Shown here: positions 12,212 through 19,748 of the stretch, one piece after another
How the letters are laid out: each line of letters opens with the position of its first letter
Numbering within the stretch: the stretch's first letter is position 1
DNA from: Phycisphaerales bacterium
GTDB taxonomy: Bacteria > Planctomycetota > Phycisphaerae > Phycisphaerales > SM1A02
Assembly (NCBI GenBank): GCA_022447205.1
Contig: JAKVBQ010000021.1
Location: 1 to 53,514 of the forward strand
Direction: 5' to 3'
DNA: 53,514 nt
Program-made: the position numbers and the translations under genes
The notes under the pieces: model-generated
Database searches by the model: none
What the model was told of the DNA's origin: nothing
The model's input: only the letters and a program-made list of their open reading frames with translations

Positions 12212-12325
12212 TCCGACGACTGAAAACCCGCCTCACGAGCCCCCGGAGGCCCGGTGGGCCGAACATCGGGCTCGAGACTCAAGCCAGCCCCCGAAGGTGC
12301 CGACGTCATCAACGGAGGCTCCGCC

Positions 12326-12973
12326 ATGAGCTCGATTCCGCACAGCATGATCGAAACCCCGGCCCTGCAGGCGCAGGTGCTGGTGCTGAATCGCGTCTAC
12401 ACCGCGATCAAGATCGTTGATGCGAGAAGGGCCTTCACCCTGCTCGCGAAGCAGATCGCGGAAGTCGTCGCGCTCGAGGAAGGCACCTACCGCAACTACG
12501 ACCTCCACTCCTGGACCGACATCGCGGAACTCCAGAAGGAACTCGAGGCCGATGCGCACGAATGGGTGTCGACCGCACGCATCAGCATCGCGGTCCCGAA
12601 GATCATCCGACTGCTCGACTACGATCGCCGGCCTCACCACGATGTGAAGCTCAACCGACGGAACATCTACGCACGCGATGAAAGTCGGTGCCAGTACTGC
12701 GGCCGGAAGCACACCTCGAAGGAACTGTCGCTCGACCATGTCCTCCCCCGCGTCCAGGGTGGTGAGGATTCCTGGACGAACCTGGTGTGCGCCTGCGTGA
12801 AGTGCAACGCACGCAAGGGTGGGCGCACCCCGAGGCAGGCGAACATGCGACTGATCCGCGAACCACGCAAGCCGAGGCGCAACCCGGCGATCACGATCCG
12901 GGTGGGTGCGCCGAGGTACAAGTCGTGGAAGGCGTTCCTTGACGAGGCGTACTGGACGGTCGAACTCGCCTGA
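12326..12973 (+). CDS. HNH endonuclease
   Basis: A 215-aa protein with a C-terminal HNH nuclease domain. CQYCG and CVKCN form the zinc-binding cysteine pairs, and LSLDHVLPRVQGGEDSWTNLV carries the first catalytic His and the Asn. The N-terminal 110 residues (ALQAQVLVLNRVYTAIKIVDARRAFTLL) form the accessory domain common to the widespread single-gene HNH proteins of Bacteroidetes and planctomycetes, whose role is not established. GGAGG upstream fixes the ATG at 12326. There is no partner methylase, phage or intron gene nearby. It converges on the CPBP gene with an 11-nt gap. Confidence 0.9.
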   Translation: MSSIPHSMIETPALQAQVLVLNRVYTAIKIVDARRAFTLLAKQIAEVVALEEGTYRNYDLHSWTDIAELQKELEADAHEWVSTARISIAVPKIIRLLDYDRRPHHDVKLNRRNIYARDESRCQYCGRKHTSKELSLDHVLPRVQGGEDSWTNLVCACVKCNARKGGRTPRQANMRLIREPRKPRRNPAITIRVGAPRYKSWKAFLDEAYWTVELA

Positions 12974-15785: not shown

Positions 15786-17408
15786 TCACGTCCCCTCAGG
15801 ACGATGGAGCTGGCGAAGTGACTCGGAGATCATGCTGGAGATCGCTCGCCTGGAGACGGAAGACCGGTCCGCGAGTTCAGCAATGGTCAGCGGGTGTTCG
15901 CTGGAGAGTCCGTACCGTGCCGTGACCAGCTTCGAGCCTTCGGCATCAAGCCGGTCCATGCGCCCCTGGAGCCGGGGCGGAAGCAGGAGTTGCGGGAACC
16001 GGGCGAAGCTCATCGATGCGGGCTGGAGAGGAGCCCCCCCCTCCTTCGAGGATCGAGCCACCTCACGCTCGCGCAGCACGATCAGCTTGTCGGTCTCGAG
16101 CGCGACGAAGCGATCGAGTCGCGGCTCGAGTTCCCCACGTGCGGTGGGATCGAACCCATCGATCGTCGAGGTCACCACCTGCACGCAGAAGGCGAACCAT
16201 CGCTCGAGATCAGGGAGGTCGAGATCGGTCAACGGCGCGGCGATGTGCTGCTCCACGCGACGGAAGGCCGCCCCCAGGACCGACTCGACGACACGACGCC
16301 ACAGACGATCGGCACGACGCAACCCGGTCTCGATCTCATCAAGACGCCCCACAGGTGGAGTCCTTGGCAGGACGTCGATCTGACGTGCGGCACTCCGAAG
16401 CTGCAGATGCATCGCCGGGAGCAGGAGCGCTTCGGGATGCGCATTCCCCCGGCGAAGCGACTCGACCAGCTCGAACACCGAAACCGGTCCGGACGAGGGT
16501 TCGGGCCCGTGCACGACGTCACGTGCCCCGAGGAGCACATGCTCGGCATCCTCCTGCTCGAAGGCCGGCATCTCGATCCAGACCGGACGCAACCGGCGAA
16601 GTCGCTCCGCACGGGCTTCCGCTCCGATCCTTCGCGTCGAAGGCGTGCTTCGGCCGATCCGAAATGCGATCGTCGAGCACTCCAGGCCGCGTTCGAAAGC
16701 CTTGAGAACAAGCGCTCGCTCACGCTCCCTGACGCGACCACCGAAGCCACGAACGGGGCCACGTTGGCCGCGATGGCGACGGATCAACTGTCGGATCGTC
16801 TCGTGCGCCCGTGCACTGCCTCCGGACACCTCGAGTGCAGCCTGGTTGAGCGAATGACCTTGCGCCATGAGGGCGTTCGCTCGTTCAAGGAGCTGGTGCT
16901 CCTCCTCGGCCGTGATCCGGGTGAACCCGGTGGCACGCTGGACGGAGGTCCCGCCTCGCTCGCGAAACCGCCGAAGCGCGCCTTGCAGAACACCAAGGCG
17001 CACCTGGCCGTCGGGAAAACGAACATGGGGGAAGACGAGCCCCCTGGCCCGCCAGCGCTGCAGGGTCCTCACGGACACCTCGAGAGCCGCTGCGGCCTCA
17101 TGCATGTCAAGGGCGCCATCGGGATCCGTCGAGGCATCGACCGGCGAATCCTCGGTGAGTCGTTGAACGAGGATCCCCAGGTCGCCAAGCAGCGCATCCC
17201 CGGACAGTGGAGCCGAGTCATCGGGAACACGATCACCAAGCAACCGCCAGCGAACGAATTCGGCCGGATAGCCGGAAGAAGGCTCGATCTCCCAGACCAG
17301 TTCCTCGGCGGCATCGAGCGCCGCCTTGCGTTGAGTCAGAGGACGTGCCTTCAACGACTCGAAGAGTCCTTCGAGGGTTGACGTCCTGAAGACCGCGGGA
17401 CGCGGCAT
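15786..17408 (-). CDS. Multi-HTH sigma-70-like regulator with MerR-type domain
   Basis: A 540-aa soluble DNA-binding protein. Residues 100-140 resemble a MerR-type winged helix (ALDMHEAAAALEVSVRTLQRWRARG). A second HTH lies at about 184-212 (HSLNQAALEVSGG...ETIRQLIRRH) and a third at 229-270 (ERALVLKAFERGLECSTIAFRIGRS). The last 57 residues look like sigma region 4 (LVTARYGLSSEHPLTIAELADRSSVSRRAISSMISESL). No clear sigma region 2 is seen, so promoter melting by this protein alone is doubtful. Large sigma-like proteins of this kind occur in planctomycetes without known regulons. It lies 3 nt after mqnA in one transcript. Confidence 0.7.
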   Translation of the reverse strand: MPRPAVFRTSTLEGLFESLKARPLTQRKAALDAAEELVWEIEPSSGYPAEFVRWRLLGDRVPDDSAPLSGDALLGDLGILVQRLTEDSPVDASTDPDGALDMHEAAAALEVSVRTLQRWRARGLVFPHVRFPDGQVRLGVLQGALRRFRERGGTSVQRATGFTRITAEEEHQLLERANALMAQGHSLNQAALEVSGGSARAHETIRQLIRRHRGQRGPVRGFGGRVRERERALVLKAFERGLECSTIAFRIGRSTPSTRRIGAEARAERLRRLRPVWIEMPAFEQEDAEHVLLGARDVVHGPEPSSGPVSVFELVESLRRGNAHPEALLLPAMHLQLRSAARQIDVLPRTPPVGRLDEIETGLRRADRLWRRVVESVLGAAFRRVEQHIAAPLTDLDLPDLERWFAFCVQVVTSTIDGFDPTARGELEPRLDRFVALETDKLIVLREREVARSSKEGGAPLQPASMSFARFPQLLLPPRLQGRMDRLDAEGSKLVTARYGLSSEHPLTIAELADRSSVSRRAISSMISESLRQLHRPEGT

Positions 17409-17411
17409 GAC

Positions 17412-18272
17412 TCAGATGTCCTCGAGGATGCGAACGGGACGGTCCCGTCCCTCGGACAGCTCGATGAACAGGCGCAGTCCCGCCATCGCCCGTTCGTCGA
17501 AGTCGTAGATCAGGTTCTCGACGAAATAGCGACGGGCGAGTTCGACCGGCCAACCGTGGATGGGCGCATGAATCGCAGCCAGTCGGCTGATCCGCGACTT
17601 GTTGCGCAACCGGGTTCGATCGAGGATCCGTGCGGCAAGACGGACCCGTTCGAGCTCCTCCGGCGTTCGATTCACCCGGCACAACCAGGTGGCGAAGACG
17701 AAGGGCAGGCCGGTCATCTCGAACCATGCCTCACCAAGGTCGACTTCATGTTCGTGGAACGCTTCAGGAACGGTCGCGGTCACAACCTTGTCACCGATCA
17801 GGAGGAGTGCATCCATTGCTGCATCGGTCCTGATCCCGTCCATGCCGGCATCGAGATCCACCAGTTCAGGTTCGACACCATGCACCTCGCGGAGGAAGAC
17901 CCGGAGCAGCTGGACAGATGTGTGACTCTCACGATCACAGGCCACCCGACTCAATTCGGACAACGGCCGGCGCGAGAGGAGTCGTACGGTCAGGGTCGGA
18001 CCGGCACATCCGAGCATCCCCACCGGTACCGCCATCAACGGTTCCGGGCAACGCACGAGATCGATCGACGAACACAGGGCCAGGTCGACCGCATCACGCT
18101 GGAGCATCCCCACCTGGTTGGCGGGCACGTCGGTCCTGACCTCCAGGGTCTCAAGGCCCTCGAGCCCGGCGATGAGCGGGATGGTGTTGAGGTAGTCGAC
18201 CGCACCGACGGTGATCATCCGGGGCAGCGTGGGCTCGATCGAGGGTGGTGCGAGGGACTCGGTCCGTGACAT
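17412..18272 (-). CDS. mqnA: Chorismate dehydratase (futalosine pathway)
   Basis: Dehydrates chorismate to 3-enolpyruvylbenzoate, the first committed step of futalosine-type menaquinone synthesis. The protein is 286 aa and has the periplasmic-binding-protein fold of MqnA/MqnD: VGAVDYLNTIPLIAGL, VDLALCSSID, VACDRESHTSVQLLRVFL, DALLLIGDKV and FEMTGLPFVFATWLCR. The N-terminal 19 residues before ITVGAVDYLN are an extension, so M19 is an alternative start; the ATG at 18272 is supported by a GCTAGACT box just upstream. No other mqn gene is in the window. It is co-transcribed with the sigma-like gene. Confidence 0.92.
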   Translation of the reverse strand: MSRTESLAPPSIEPTLPRMITVGAVDYLNTIPLIAGLEGLETLEVRTDVPANQVGMLQRDAVDLALCSSIDLVRCPEPLMAVPVGMLGCAGPTLTVRLLSRRPLSELSRVACDRESHTSVQLLRVFLREVHGVEPELVDLDAGMDGIRTDAAMDALLLIGDKVVTATVPEAFHEHEVDLGEAWFEMTGLPFVFATWLCRVNRTPEELERVRLAARILDRTRLRNKSRISRLAAIHAPIHGWPVELARRYFVENLIYDFDERAMAGLRLFIELSEGRDRPVRILEDI

Positions 18273-18330: not shown

Positions 18331-19557
18331 TCAACCCGCAGCGGTCACCGAACGCGCGTTCGGGAGGGCAGCGCCGCTCGCTGAACCCGCGACCTCGCCC
18401 GCACCTTCGGCCAGGTAGATCCTGGGGACACCCGAACCCAGGCAGGCGAGCAGCTGGTGCGGCACGATCCCTGCTCGCGAAGCCAGCCTGGCCAGGCTCA
18501 CCTGAGAGTCCGGTTGATCGGAAAGGAGCATGACGCGCTGATCGTGAAGGGGTTCGGCCGCATCGATGTCGCCGAGATCGACGACCAGTTGATCCATGTT
18601 CATCGCCCCCACCACGGGTGCGGCACGCATGCCGTCACGGGTCTCGACGAGGACACGTTGGGGATCCGTGGGATCGACCAGGGTGGCGGGATAGCCATCG
18701 GCATAGCCGACAGGAACCAGTCCGATGCGCGTCGCCCGGGGACTCGTCCAGGTGGATCCGTACCCGATGGTGGTGCCGGCCTCGATGGCGCGCACCTGAA
18801 TGAGGGAGCTCGACCAGCTGACCGCACCATGCAGCCCTGCCTCGATGGCACGGGAACCGTCGATGTCCGACGGCAGGGAACCTGTCCAACCCAGTCCGAT
18901 CCGAACGAGATCCCGACGTTGGTCGGGGCTCGTGAAACACGGCCCGGTACTCGCAGCGTGGATCCGGACTCGCGTTGGCAGCACCTCGCGCACCTCTTCC
19001 AGAACGGAGTCGAAGCACGCGGCCTGTTCGGCGACGCGTCGGGGATCCTGTTCGCTGAAGTGCGTGAAGACCCCGGTCAGGCGAAGGGAACGTGCCGCCC
19101 GAACCGCTTCGATGAGCATCGCGGCCTGCCCGGGCAGGACCCCCCCACGACCCATGCCGGTATCGATCTCCACATGCACGGGGATCGGTCGTCCCAGGCG
19201 TATGCCGGCCAGGGCGGTCATCTGCTCCAGATCACCGATCGAACATTCAAGGCGACCGGTGGCAAGCAACCTGGAGATCGCAGGATCCCGGGGGAAGTCG
19301 CAGGTCGGCATCAGGACCAGGATCCGGGCTGAACCGGAGATCTCCTCGATCTCTGCAGCCTGCCCGGGCGTGAAGACGGCAAGCATCCGCGAACCGGCCC
19401 CGACGAGGGTCCTGGCCACCCTGCGGGCACCAAGGCCGTAGGCATCGGCCTTGACCACGGAGCAGATTTCAGGCCCTGAGCCCACCACACGACGTATTGC
19501 GCGGAGATTTTCCGCGATGGCGTCCAGATCGACTCGGATGTGGCTTGTGTGGCGCAT
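18331..19557 (-). CDS. alr: Alanine racemase
   Basis: PLP enzyme that makes D-alanine for peptidoglycan. The protein is 408 aa, slightly long. The PLP lysine is K36 in VVKADAYGLG; HVEIDTGMGRGG, FTHFSEQD, the catalytic Tyr in TIGYGSTW, PVGYADGYP and AMNMDQLVVDL are all present. The C-terminal 30 residues (GAGEVAGSASGAALPNA...) are an extra low-complexity tail. The start at MRHTSHIRVDLDAI follows homology; upstream in-frame codons are unsupported. It is divergent from the DEAD-box helicase. With murA, murG and ftsW it shows that the organism builds a peptidoglycan wall. Confidence 0.96.
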   Translation of the reverse strand: MRHTSHIRVDLDAIAENLRAIRRVVGSGPEICSVVKADAYGLGARRVARTLVGAGSRMLAVFTPGQAAEIEEISGSARILVLMPTCDFPRDPAISRLLATGRLECSIGDLEQMTALAGIRLGRPIPVHVEIDTGMGRGGVLPGQAAMLIEAVRAARSLRLTGVFTHFSEQDPRRVAEQAACFDSVLEEVREVLPTRVRIHAASTGPCFTSPDQRRDLVRIGLGWTGSLPSDIDGSRAIEAGLHGAVSWSSSLIQVRAIEAGTTIGYGSTWTSPRATRIGLVPVGYADGYPATLVDPTDPQRVLVETRDGMRAAPVVGAMNMDQLVVDLGDIDAAEPLHDQRVMLLSDQPDSQVSLARLASRAGIVPHQLLACLGSGVPRIYLAEGAGEVAGSASGAALPNARSVTAAG

Positions 19558-19748
19558 GCAGTCCGTTGCAGTCCCACTGTTTGTATCGGTTGACGCTCGA
19601 CCATACCATGACAGGTCTCGGCCAGCGAACCCCACATGCTGTCCAGATCATCGTGACCGTCGCTCCAGGCTGGTCACGGGAACGAGAACGCCCGCATTGG
19701 CACGATTCGACCGGCGCCTCATCCTCGAACTACGGATCCAAGCAGACC

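Follow-up and report, generated by a model that had tools for sequence, protein, structure and literature searches.

PhyR of the Alphaproteobacteria, a sigma mimic according to an excerpt of PMC4598750, is a larger regulator that contains a sigma-like domain with degenerate core- and promoter-binding regions (excerpts of PMC8103513). The gene described here resembles it in that respect. It lies at positions 15786–17408 (−) of a 53,514-nucleotide contig from a bacterium of the order Phycisphaerales, class Phycisphaerae, phylum Planctomycetota (JAKVBQ010000021.1, assembly GCA_022447205.1); this whole stretch of DNA is referred to below as the window. The gene, confirmed as real, is an intact open reading frame (ORF) of 540 amino acids (P0001), and its homologs, which join helix-turn-helix (HTH) domains to a sigma-derived part and are called HTH-sigma here, are widespread in the class and the order. 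Comparative analysis suggests, at a probability of roughly 0.64, that P0001 is a converted sigma factor, an HTH-fused sigma that would have been turned in place into a DNA-binding regulator and would no longer form a normal holoenzyme. Compared to PhyR, which combines a domain of the extracytoplasmic function (ECF) type with a receiver and binds NepR, HTH-sigma has three HTHs, and no receiver domain is among the Pfam matches of P0001 up to E 1. Furthermore, the order that carries HTH-sigma still contains a family with the sigma motifs (f3).

Other known systems share parts of this layout. First, planctomycete ECF factors of the former groups ECF87–89 carry N-terminal extensions and are thus N-terminally extended sigma factors of the same phylum (excerpts of PMC8103513). 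A relative of P0001 with canonical sigma regions that was displayed in full passes only the broad sigma70-ECF model TIGR02937 among 25 listed models (82.7 versus 42.9 bits), and TIGR02999 matches P0001 at E 0.011, below its cut-off; however, the canonical relatives score highest with models of the RpoD/SigB type. Some members of HTH-sigma may be identical with ECF87–89, as far as the description in the excerpted review allows the comparison. Second, sigma-70 factors of the RpoD/SigA/SigB type (PF04542, PF04545) are similar in that the canonical relatives match their models and region 4 of P0001 folds as that of SigA. They differ in that the canonical relative displayed in full remains far from the model cut-offs (e.g., 132 of 464 bits), HTH-sigma has an N-terminal domain and three HTHs with no region 3 seen, and in the branch that holds the window the sigma motifs have been lost. 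Third, MzaA, the sigma-70-type protein of the MZA defence system, is matched by a canonical relative in the sigma regions (E 5e-36; PADLOC E 4e-27), but the best stretch covers the sigma part only and P0001 has no PADLOC match to MzaA at E 0.01.

A regulator of the MerR family consists, as a whole protein, of an N-terminal HTH followed by a dimerisation helix and an effector domain. The first HTH of P0001 scores over the cut-offs of MerR_1 and HTH_17 and superposes on phage Xis, as expected of MerR/excisionase-type regulators. However, it lies at residues 98–154 of a much larger protein, with another two HTHs and a sigma remnant C-terminal to it, and no MerR effector domain is among the Pfam matches of P0001. 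No paper on an HTH–sigma fusion of this layout was among those listed from the open-licence full-text literature, a scope beyond which most subscription papers lie.

The family is large and coherent by sequence. A search with P0001 gave matches in at least 187 of the 198 genomes of the class, with G177 and G119 scored as misses although they carry the gene. Within the order, the N-terminal module together with the sigma-derived part is retained in 100 of 101 genomes, 95 of them recognized by the family profile and five (G177, G401, G404, G413 and G449) by an N-terminal profile; these five copies occupy the usual locus. The sole exception is G392 (78% complete), in which neither profile gave a match. 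In a sample of 199 genomes of the phylum, 186 of them outside the class, at least 16 outside-class genomes have a near full-length match (one with an internal stop and one in two pieces), and the remaining outside-class matches listed cover mostly the sigma part only, as expected of any sigma factor. The family profile, in whose alignment P0001 itself is a row, matches P0001 over residues 1–537 (E 8.2e-169), while P0001 as the sole query finds the homolog at locus L002 at E 1.2e-121 over residues 1–534, with the N-terminal domain, the HTHs and the sigma part collinear. The one named relative that was found is in a Phycisphaerales metagenome-assembled genome (JAQWMQ010000035.1; 57% identity in the best segment).

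The comparison set consisted of 126 proteins: 100 from the order, 20 from class members outside the order, taken from among the 187 class matches with each of 18 families represented by one or two, and six from other classes (out of the near full-length outside-class matches, at least 16 in number). The order proteins comprise the window's branch with 64 copies (f1 with 29, f2 with 28, f5 with six and f100 with one), f3 with eight and f4 with 28. The window's branch is represented by 59 of its 64 copies, or by pairs of these, in the tree, the profile–profile alignments (hhalign), residue conservation and the ratio of nonsynonymous to synonymous substitution rates (dN/dS); the last five copies are absent from these analyses.

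In relatives outside the order, the segment that separates the HTHs from region 4 is readily recognized as a sigma-70 region 2, for example NLRLVVSIAKRH...ELISDGNVSLM...FDYSRGNRFSTYASWA. All 13 of 13 canonical relatives match models of the RpoD/SigA/SigB type (best E 3e-39), and a profile built from canonical relatives finds solved HrdB/SigA chains at E 7e-41. The corresponding stretch of P0001 is without these region 2 motifs; Sigma70_r2 (PF04542) gave no Pfam match in P0001 up to E 1, and among the 16 PF04542 matches in the window genome none falls at the HTH-sigma gene. The original prediction, that P0001 is a sigma-like protein with no visible region 2, therefore holds for a single-sequence Pfam search and for the motifs, which are gone. 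It does not hold for the domain as such: the canonical relatives and the profile comparison place an altered, degenerate sigma region 2 at about residues 353–456 (16041–16352, −). Directly upstream in the protein, residues 307–350 (16359–16490, −) form helices before region 2, at a position like that of region 1.2 (helices 311–319 and 326–345 in the AlphaFold2 (AF2) model), within the stretch that aligns with SigA.

In Escherichia coli sigma-70, the motif of region 2.2 serves in binding the β′ clamp, that of region 2.3 in melting and that of region 4.2 in −35 contacts. The region 2.2 motif [DE]xxx[DE]G is present in 24 of 26 proteins outside the order (G027 and G227 being the misses) and in seven of eight in f3, as compared to one of 28 in f4 and none of 64 in the window's branch. 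The region 2.3 motif F[SAT]x[YF] follows the same course, with 26/26 outside the order, 7/8 in f3, 1/28 in f4 and 1/64 in the window's branch (G386, not the window), as does the region 4.2 motif R[QL]xE, with 25/26 (G018 being the miss), 6/8, 1/28 (a misaligned tail without region 4) and 0/64. Among the f3 copies, G394 is truncated by the end of its contig and was scored as lacking the region 2.3 and 4.2 motifs; G387 is without the 2.2 and 4.2 motifs outright. At the position of Y430, an aromatic residue (F/Y/W) occurs in two of 59 copies of the window's branch versus all 26 outside the order. By these comparisons, the core-binding motif of region 2.2 is lost in the window's branch and the melting motif of region 2.3 almost entirely so.

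An HMMER profile of region 2 from the outside copies (domain E <0.001) matches all eight f3 copies, 24 of the 28 in f4 and seven of the 64 in the window's branch. In hhalign, the degenerate region 2 (about residues 300–462), represented by a query of the 59 degenerate sequences with no canonical relative among them, aligned with other sigma factors at P 83.3, E 8.5e-6 and score 43.1. The target was a profile of six sigma factors, namely RpoD and the short sigma paralog of the window genome and the short paralogs of four other genomes. Sixty column-permuted controls gave P values of at most 0.1 and scores of at most 12.9; against the same sigma profile, region 2 of f4 reached P 98.8 and the N-terminal HTH part P 1.5. 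Region 2 of P0001 is thus, on sequence grounds, present by descent and altered rather than absent. The search for a hidden region 2 that had been proposed with the original prediction, carried out here with hhalign, accordingly found a degenerate sigma-2 by descent in which the core-binding and melting motifs are not kept.

Region 4 has had a different fate in the different branches. In P0001 it spans residues 479–538 (15795–15974, −), where Sigma70_r4 (PF04545) matches residues 484–534 at 22.6 bits, slightly below the cut-off of 24.1; the fold is kept and the recognition helix is altered, with R[QL]xE lost. In VIA-align comparisons, residues 479–539 of the model superpose on region 4 of SigA with Z 9.5 over 61 residues at 2.6 Å, and for residues 307–540 the alignment with entire SigA chains reaches a Z of about 9, at a root-mean-square deviation of about 26 Å. 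Foldseek with the P0001 model gave a best E of 0.0098, and all of the best 50 rows are sigma factors. An HMMER profile of region 4 from the outside copies (domain E <0.001) matches seven of eight in f3, none of 28 in f4 and 26 of 64 in the window's branch. The f4 proteins have 26–61 residues beyond the end of region 2 versus a median of 105–122 in the other groups. From the motif and profile counts, the greatest change in region 2 is seen in the window's branch; in f4, region 2 has drifted to a lesser extent and region 4 has been lost.

The f4 branch (loci L101–L108, L138, L140, L144, L146–L149, L151, L152, L154, L155, L157, L159, L162, L164, L165, L170, L171, L182 and L076) thus presents a protein with the N-terminal HTH module kept, region 4 gone and region 2 drifted. 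Downstream of f4 loci (e.g., L101:4326–5681), QueE-like and QueD-like frames, named by eye, lie on the opposite strand, each at 13 of 28 loci.

These data bear on a second explanation, in which HTH-sigma would act as a co-sigma or region-4 activator on the holoenzyme of another sigma factor, or as part of a split sigma like SigO/RsoA, with region 4 on the β flap and the HTHs on upstream DNA. The retained region 4 fold and the 26 copies still matched by the outside region-4 profile fit such a role, for which SigO/RsoA is a precedent (excerpts of PMC8103513). However, R[QL]xE is found in no copy of the window's branch, region 4 is undetected throughout f4 even though the HTH module is kept there, and clustering of the flanking frames, in which the genes are only partly annotated, gave no common partner beyond mqnA or alr. 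We regard this explanation as unlikely. The co- or anti-sigma docking put forward in the original prediction may apply to the window's branch, but since f4 is without region 4, docking through this region cannot be the general function of the family.

A tree of the N-terminal HTH part alone, which makes it independent of the sigma part, places the 59 copies of the window's branch (among 121 rows) in one clade with support of 99/98. In this tree f3 and f4 each form a clade (100/99), and the 26 proteins from outside the order are separated from the rest (100/100). The tree is compatible with more than one order of branching among f3, f4 and the 59 copies, and hence with either one or two losses of the sigma motifs.

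The altered sigma part appears to be maintained. For the remnant region 2, 11 of 11 close pairs within the window's branch have dN/dS values of 0.06–0.30, on the order of the HTH values, and region 4 of the same pairs gives 0.17–0.60. Ratios are below 1 in every domain of the 11 pairs wherever computed (maximum 0.60; three domain values were not computable), and region 2 of f4 gave 0.21 and 0.49 in the two computable pairs. The remnant region 2 is, by these estimates, under purifying selection. Residues D357, E360, T361, L363 and R364 of P0001, just before region 2.1, are 85–98% conserved in the 59 copies, above the level outside the order, and the DxxETxLR stretch to which they belong is stronger in f3 and the 59 copies than outside the order. 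Similarly, a linker tryptophan before region 4 is conserved in 95% of the 59 copies (the window has phenylalanine), again above the outside-order level, and HTH residues are conserved in all branches. The sigma remnant therefore looks, from its sequence, like a maintained domain with new constraints.

It is against this background that a decaying, near-functionless relic has to be considered. Divergence is fast, with a mean pairwise identity of 23–34% by domain among the 59 copies, and nine of the 95 family-profile matches cross a stop, mostly a single one; yet all nine have frames of at least 538 codons. With dN/dS below 1 in the computable domains of all 11 pairs, the gene in 100 of 101 genomes and newly conserved residues in the remnant, the relic explanation appears highly improbable.

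Several observations weigh against the conversion of P0001 into a DNA-binding regulator as proposed here. First, the region 2 fold in the full AF2 model is not independent evidence, because canonical relatives are in the alignment behind that model, and the independent case therefore rests on hhalign without canonical relatives. Second, the degenerate region 2 did not match RpoD as a single sequence (hhalign P 0.1), so that the link to sigma-2 is visible only with a profile that includes the short paralogs. Third, region 4 of P0001 comes close to the Pfam cut-off and has a fold like that of SigA region 4, and 26 of the 64 copies in its branch are still matched by the outside profile; the β flap may thus still be contacted. 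Fourth, region 4 is weakly constrained between the window and its nearest relative, G419, a genome of the same genus, where dN/dS reaches 0.60, the highest value, and dN/dS values are rough, as many dS values exceed 1.

The N-terminal half of the protein, with the HTH module, is well modelled. The AF2 model of full P0001 has a mean predicted local distance difference test (pLDDT) score of 85.6, and a model of residues 1–300 has a score of 88.7 and three HTHs. The HTH units in the model are a winged MerR-type unit (98–152), two further HTHs (167–212 and 228–272) and the region 4 unit (about 479–538), in agreement with the original prediction of a sigma-like protein with four HTH units, which the Pfam matches and the AF2 models bear out. 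The N-terminal 100 residues or so, described there as unknown, form a helical domain of about 95 residues (residues 1–95; 17124–17408, −), well predicted (pLDDT mostly >90), with no Pfam match up to E 1. Y47, P48, G58, G70 and D76 of this domain are nearly invariant among relatives. Foldseek with the model of residues 1–300 gave no match at E ≤0.001. Most VIA-align rows for that model span residues 160–273 and a few residues 97–154; the first 95 residues are barely covered by the fold search, and a new fold is therefore not claimed for them.

The first HTH, a MerR/excisionase-type winged HTH (residues 98–154; 16947–17117, −), was correctly assigned to the MerR type: MerR_1 (PF13411) matches residues 102–129 at 27.8 bits versus a cut-off of 21.6, and HTH_17 scores 27.4 bits, over its cut-off of 27. 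Its VIA-align superpositions include a domain of the viral DNA-packaging protein 7lwr (Z 7.1, 53 residues, 3.0 Å) and Xis of phage Pukovnik (Z 6.4, 52 residues, 2.5 Å). Scans of P0001 against PADLOC and PHROGs gave matches at the HTH or sigma level only, such as mad1 at residues 99–135 (E 5e-9) and excisionase families. The second HTH (residues 163–215; 16764–16922, −) has AF2 helices at 167–182, 187–196 and 202–212, with R200 and R206 conserved among relatives. The third (residues 226–273; 16590–16733, −) is HTH_23-like: PF13384 matches residues 226–261 at 23.4 bits, slightly below the cut-off of 24.6, and at E 0.1 it is found in 22 of 24 proteins of the family. Several solved sigma region 4s superpose on this third HTH, with Z values of up to 7.9 (SigG1, 47 residues, 1.4 Å). 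Judging from these models, the third HTH may represent either an additional unit of the sigma-4 type or simply a generic HTH, and the HTH likenesses, all with Z below 8, may be generic altogether. Matches of residues 159–272, approximately, to spliceosomal proteins (Z up to 8.1) were set aside as a generic tandem-HTH likeness.

The genomic context is conserved within the order. The ATG of HTH-sigma lies 3 nucleotides past the stop of mqnA on the same strand (17412–18272, −; PF02621, E 1.8e-42, 146 bits versus a cut-off of 26), and mqnA adjoins the gene upstream on the same strand at 80 of 100 order loci, so that the predicted coupling of the two genes stands. By family, the adjacency is found at 17/29 loci in f1, 24/28 in f2, 8/8 in f3, 24/28 in f4, 6/6 in f5 and 1/1 in f100. 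As f3 combines adjacency to mqnA with the sigma motifs, the link either predates the loss of the motifs or is independent of it. Further upstream in the window, 58 nucleotides before mqnA, lies the alanine racemase gene alr (18331–19635, −; PF01168 and PF00842), which is upstream on the same strand at 22 of 24 f1 loci and with five of five further copies. Apart from mqnA or alr, no neighbor shared by the families emerged when flanking frames were clustered, although the flanking genes are only partly annotated. Outside the order, the search for a conserved partner at the 26 loci yielded a single cluster; as it overlaps the family gene on the opposite strand and resembles an antisense shadow of that gene, it was rejected. 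Elsewhere in the window, an ORF at 12254–12973 (+) resembles an HNH endonuclease by a CxxC/DHV motif, judged by eye only.

Such a conserved arrangement raises the question of whether HTH-sigma is a dedicated regulator of menaquinone synthesis or respiration, tied to mqnA by function, as the control of respiration suggested in the original prediction would have it. In its favor are the adjacency at most order loci, the 3-nucleotide gap in the window and the finding that no order genome with mqnA was seen without HTH-sigma; G404, G413 and G449, for example, carry the gene beside mqnA. However, 12 of the 26 order genomes searched for PF02621 are without MqnA/MqnD genes (G084, G398, G410, G431, G446, G422, G437, G440, G197, G177, G401 and G039), which suggests, at the level of gene content, that the futalosine pathway was lost there, and all 12 retain HTH-sigma. 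The link is thus conserved, and the gene is not dependent on mqnA. Outside the order, none of the 26 loci adjoins mqnA (one, in G050, with only 51 nucleotides upstream), though PF02621 genes are present in 18 of these genomes; the other eight have none and yet carry HTH-sigma. The case for menaquinone or respiratory control is accordingly weak, and we consider a dedicated role of this kind decidedly unlikely.

The window genome also encodes a full RpoD with regions 1.1, 1.2, 2, 3 and 4, as well as a canonical short sigma paralog of 383 amino acids with regions 2 and 4 and no region 3 match (locus L135:126–1275, +, contig C25). The short paralog is found in 100 of 101 order genomes, mostly with 48–68% identity to the copy of the window genome; it is about 40% identical in three genomes of one genus, and G137 has a weak sigma match only (E 1.3e-11). 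Nearly all genomes of the order carry it, and its sequence is better conserved than that of HTH-sigma.

The presence of this paralog allows for an explanation in which P0001 would be a sigma mimic like PhyR, its degenerate sigma domain titrating an anti-sigma factor or partner of the short paralog and the HTH module serving as a regulator or DNA anchor. The change is of the kind described for PhyR, with degenerate promoter- and core-binding regions (excerpts of PMC8103513), the remnant region 2 is under purifying selection, and the canonical paralog accompanies the family in nearly every order genome. However, P0001 has none of the receiver matches that PhyR would lead one to expect, and the two genes lie apart in the window genome, on contigs C14 and C25. 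This explanation is quite unlikely in our view.

The conversion of a sigma factor into a DNA-binding regulator would proceed as follows. P0001 belongs to the Phycisphaerales branch of a family in which a sigma-70 factor, with regions 2 and 4 but no visible region 3, is fused to the N-terminal domain and three HTHs. In the sampled lineages outside the order, it apparently works as an alternative sigma factor equipped with DNA-binding domains of its own. The region 2 residues that would grip the β′ clamp and melt the −10 element are gone from the window's branch and the recognition helix of region 4 has changed, with the HTH module kept and the old sigma fold maintained by purifying selection. 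As the signature residues are lost and yet the gene is in nearly every genome, it is probably now a DNA-binding regulator. We infer that P0001 uses its HTHs to bind specific DNA and that it regulates as an ordinary activator or repressor would, outside a normal holoenzyme, while the remnant sigma core would serve as a scaffold or partner-binding surface and RpoD and the canonical short paralog would carry out sigma work. The "new DNA-binding platform" of the original prediction is the favored explanation, as far as sequence can indicate.

On a broader scale, the odds are about even that sigma-70 factors with a built-in three-HTH module form a family found throughout the class and in part of the phylum, and that in Phycisphaerales one or two conversions in place gave rise to a DNA-binding protein for which polymerase binding is no longer needed, with intermediates still alive: f3 with the motifs kept, f4 with region 4 lost and the window's branch with both regions altered. 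Few cases are known of sigma factors that cease to be sigma factors, PhyR being one example. With a graded series in a single order (eight copies in f3, 28 in f4 and 64 in the window's branch), it becomes testable which contacts are lost first and what takes their place. Furthermore, the canonical members, if they are working sigma factors, would be sigma factors with their own DNA-binding arms.

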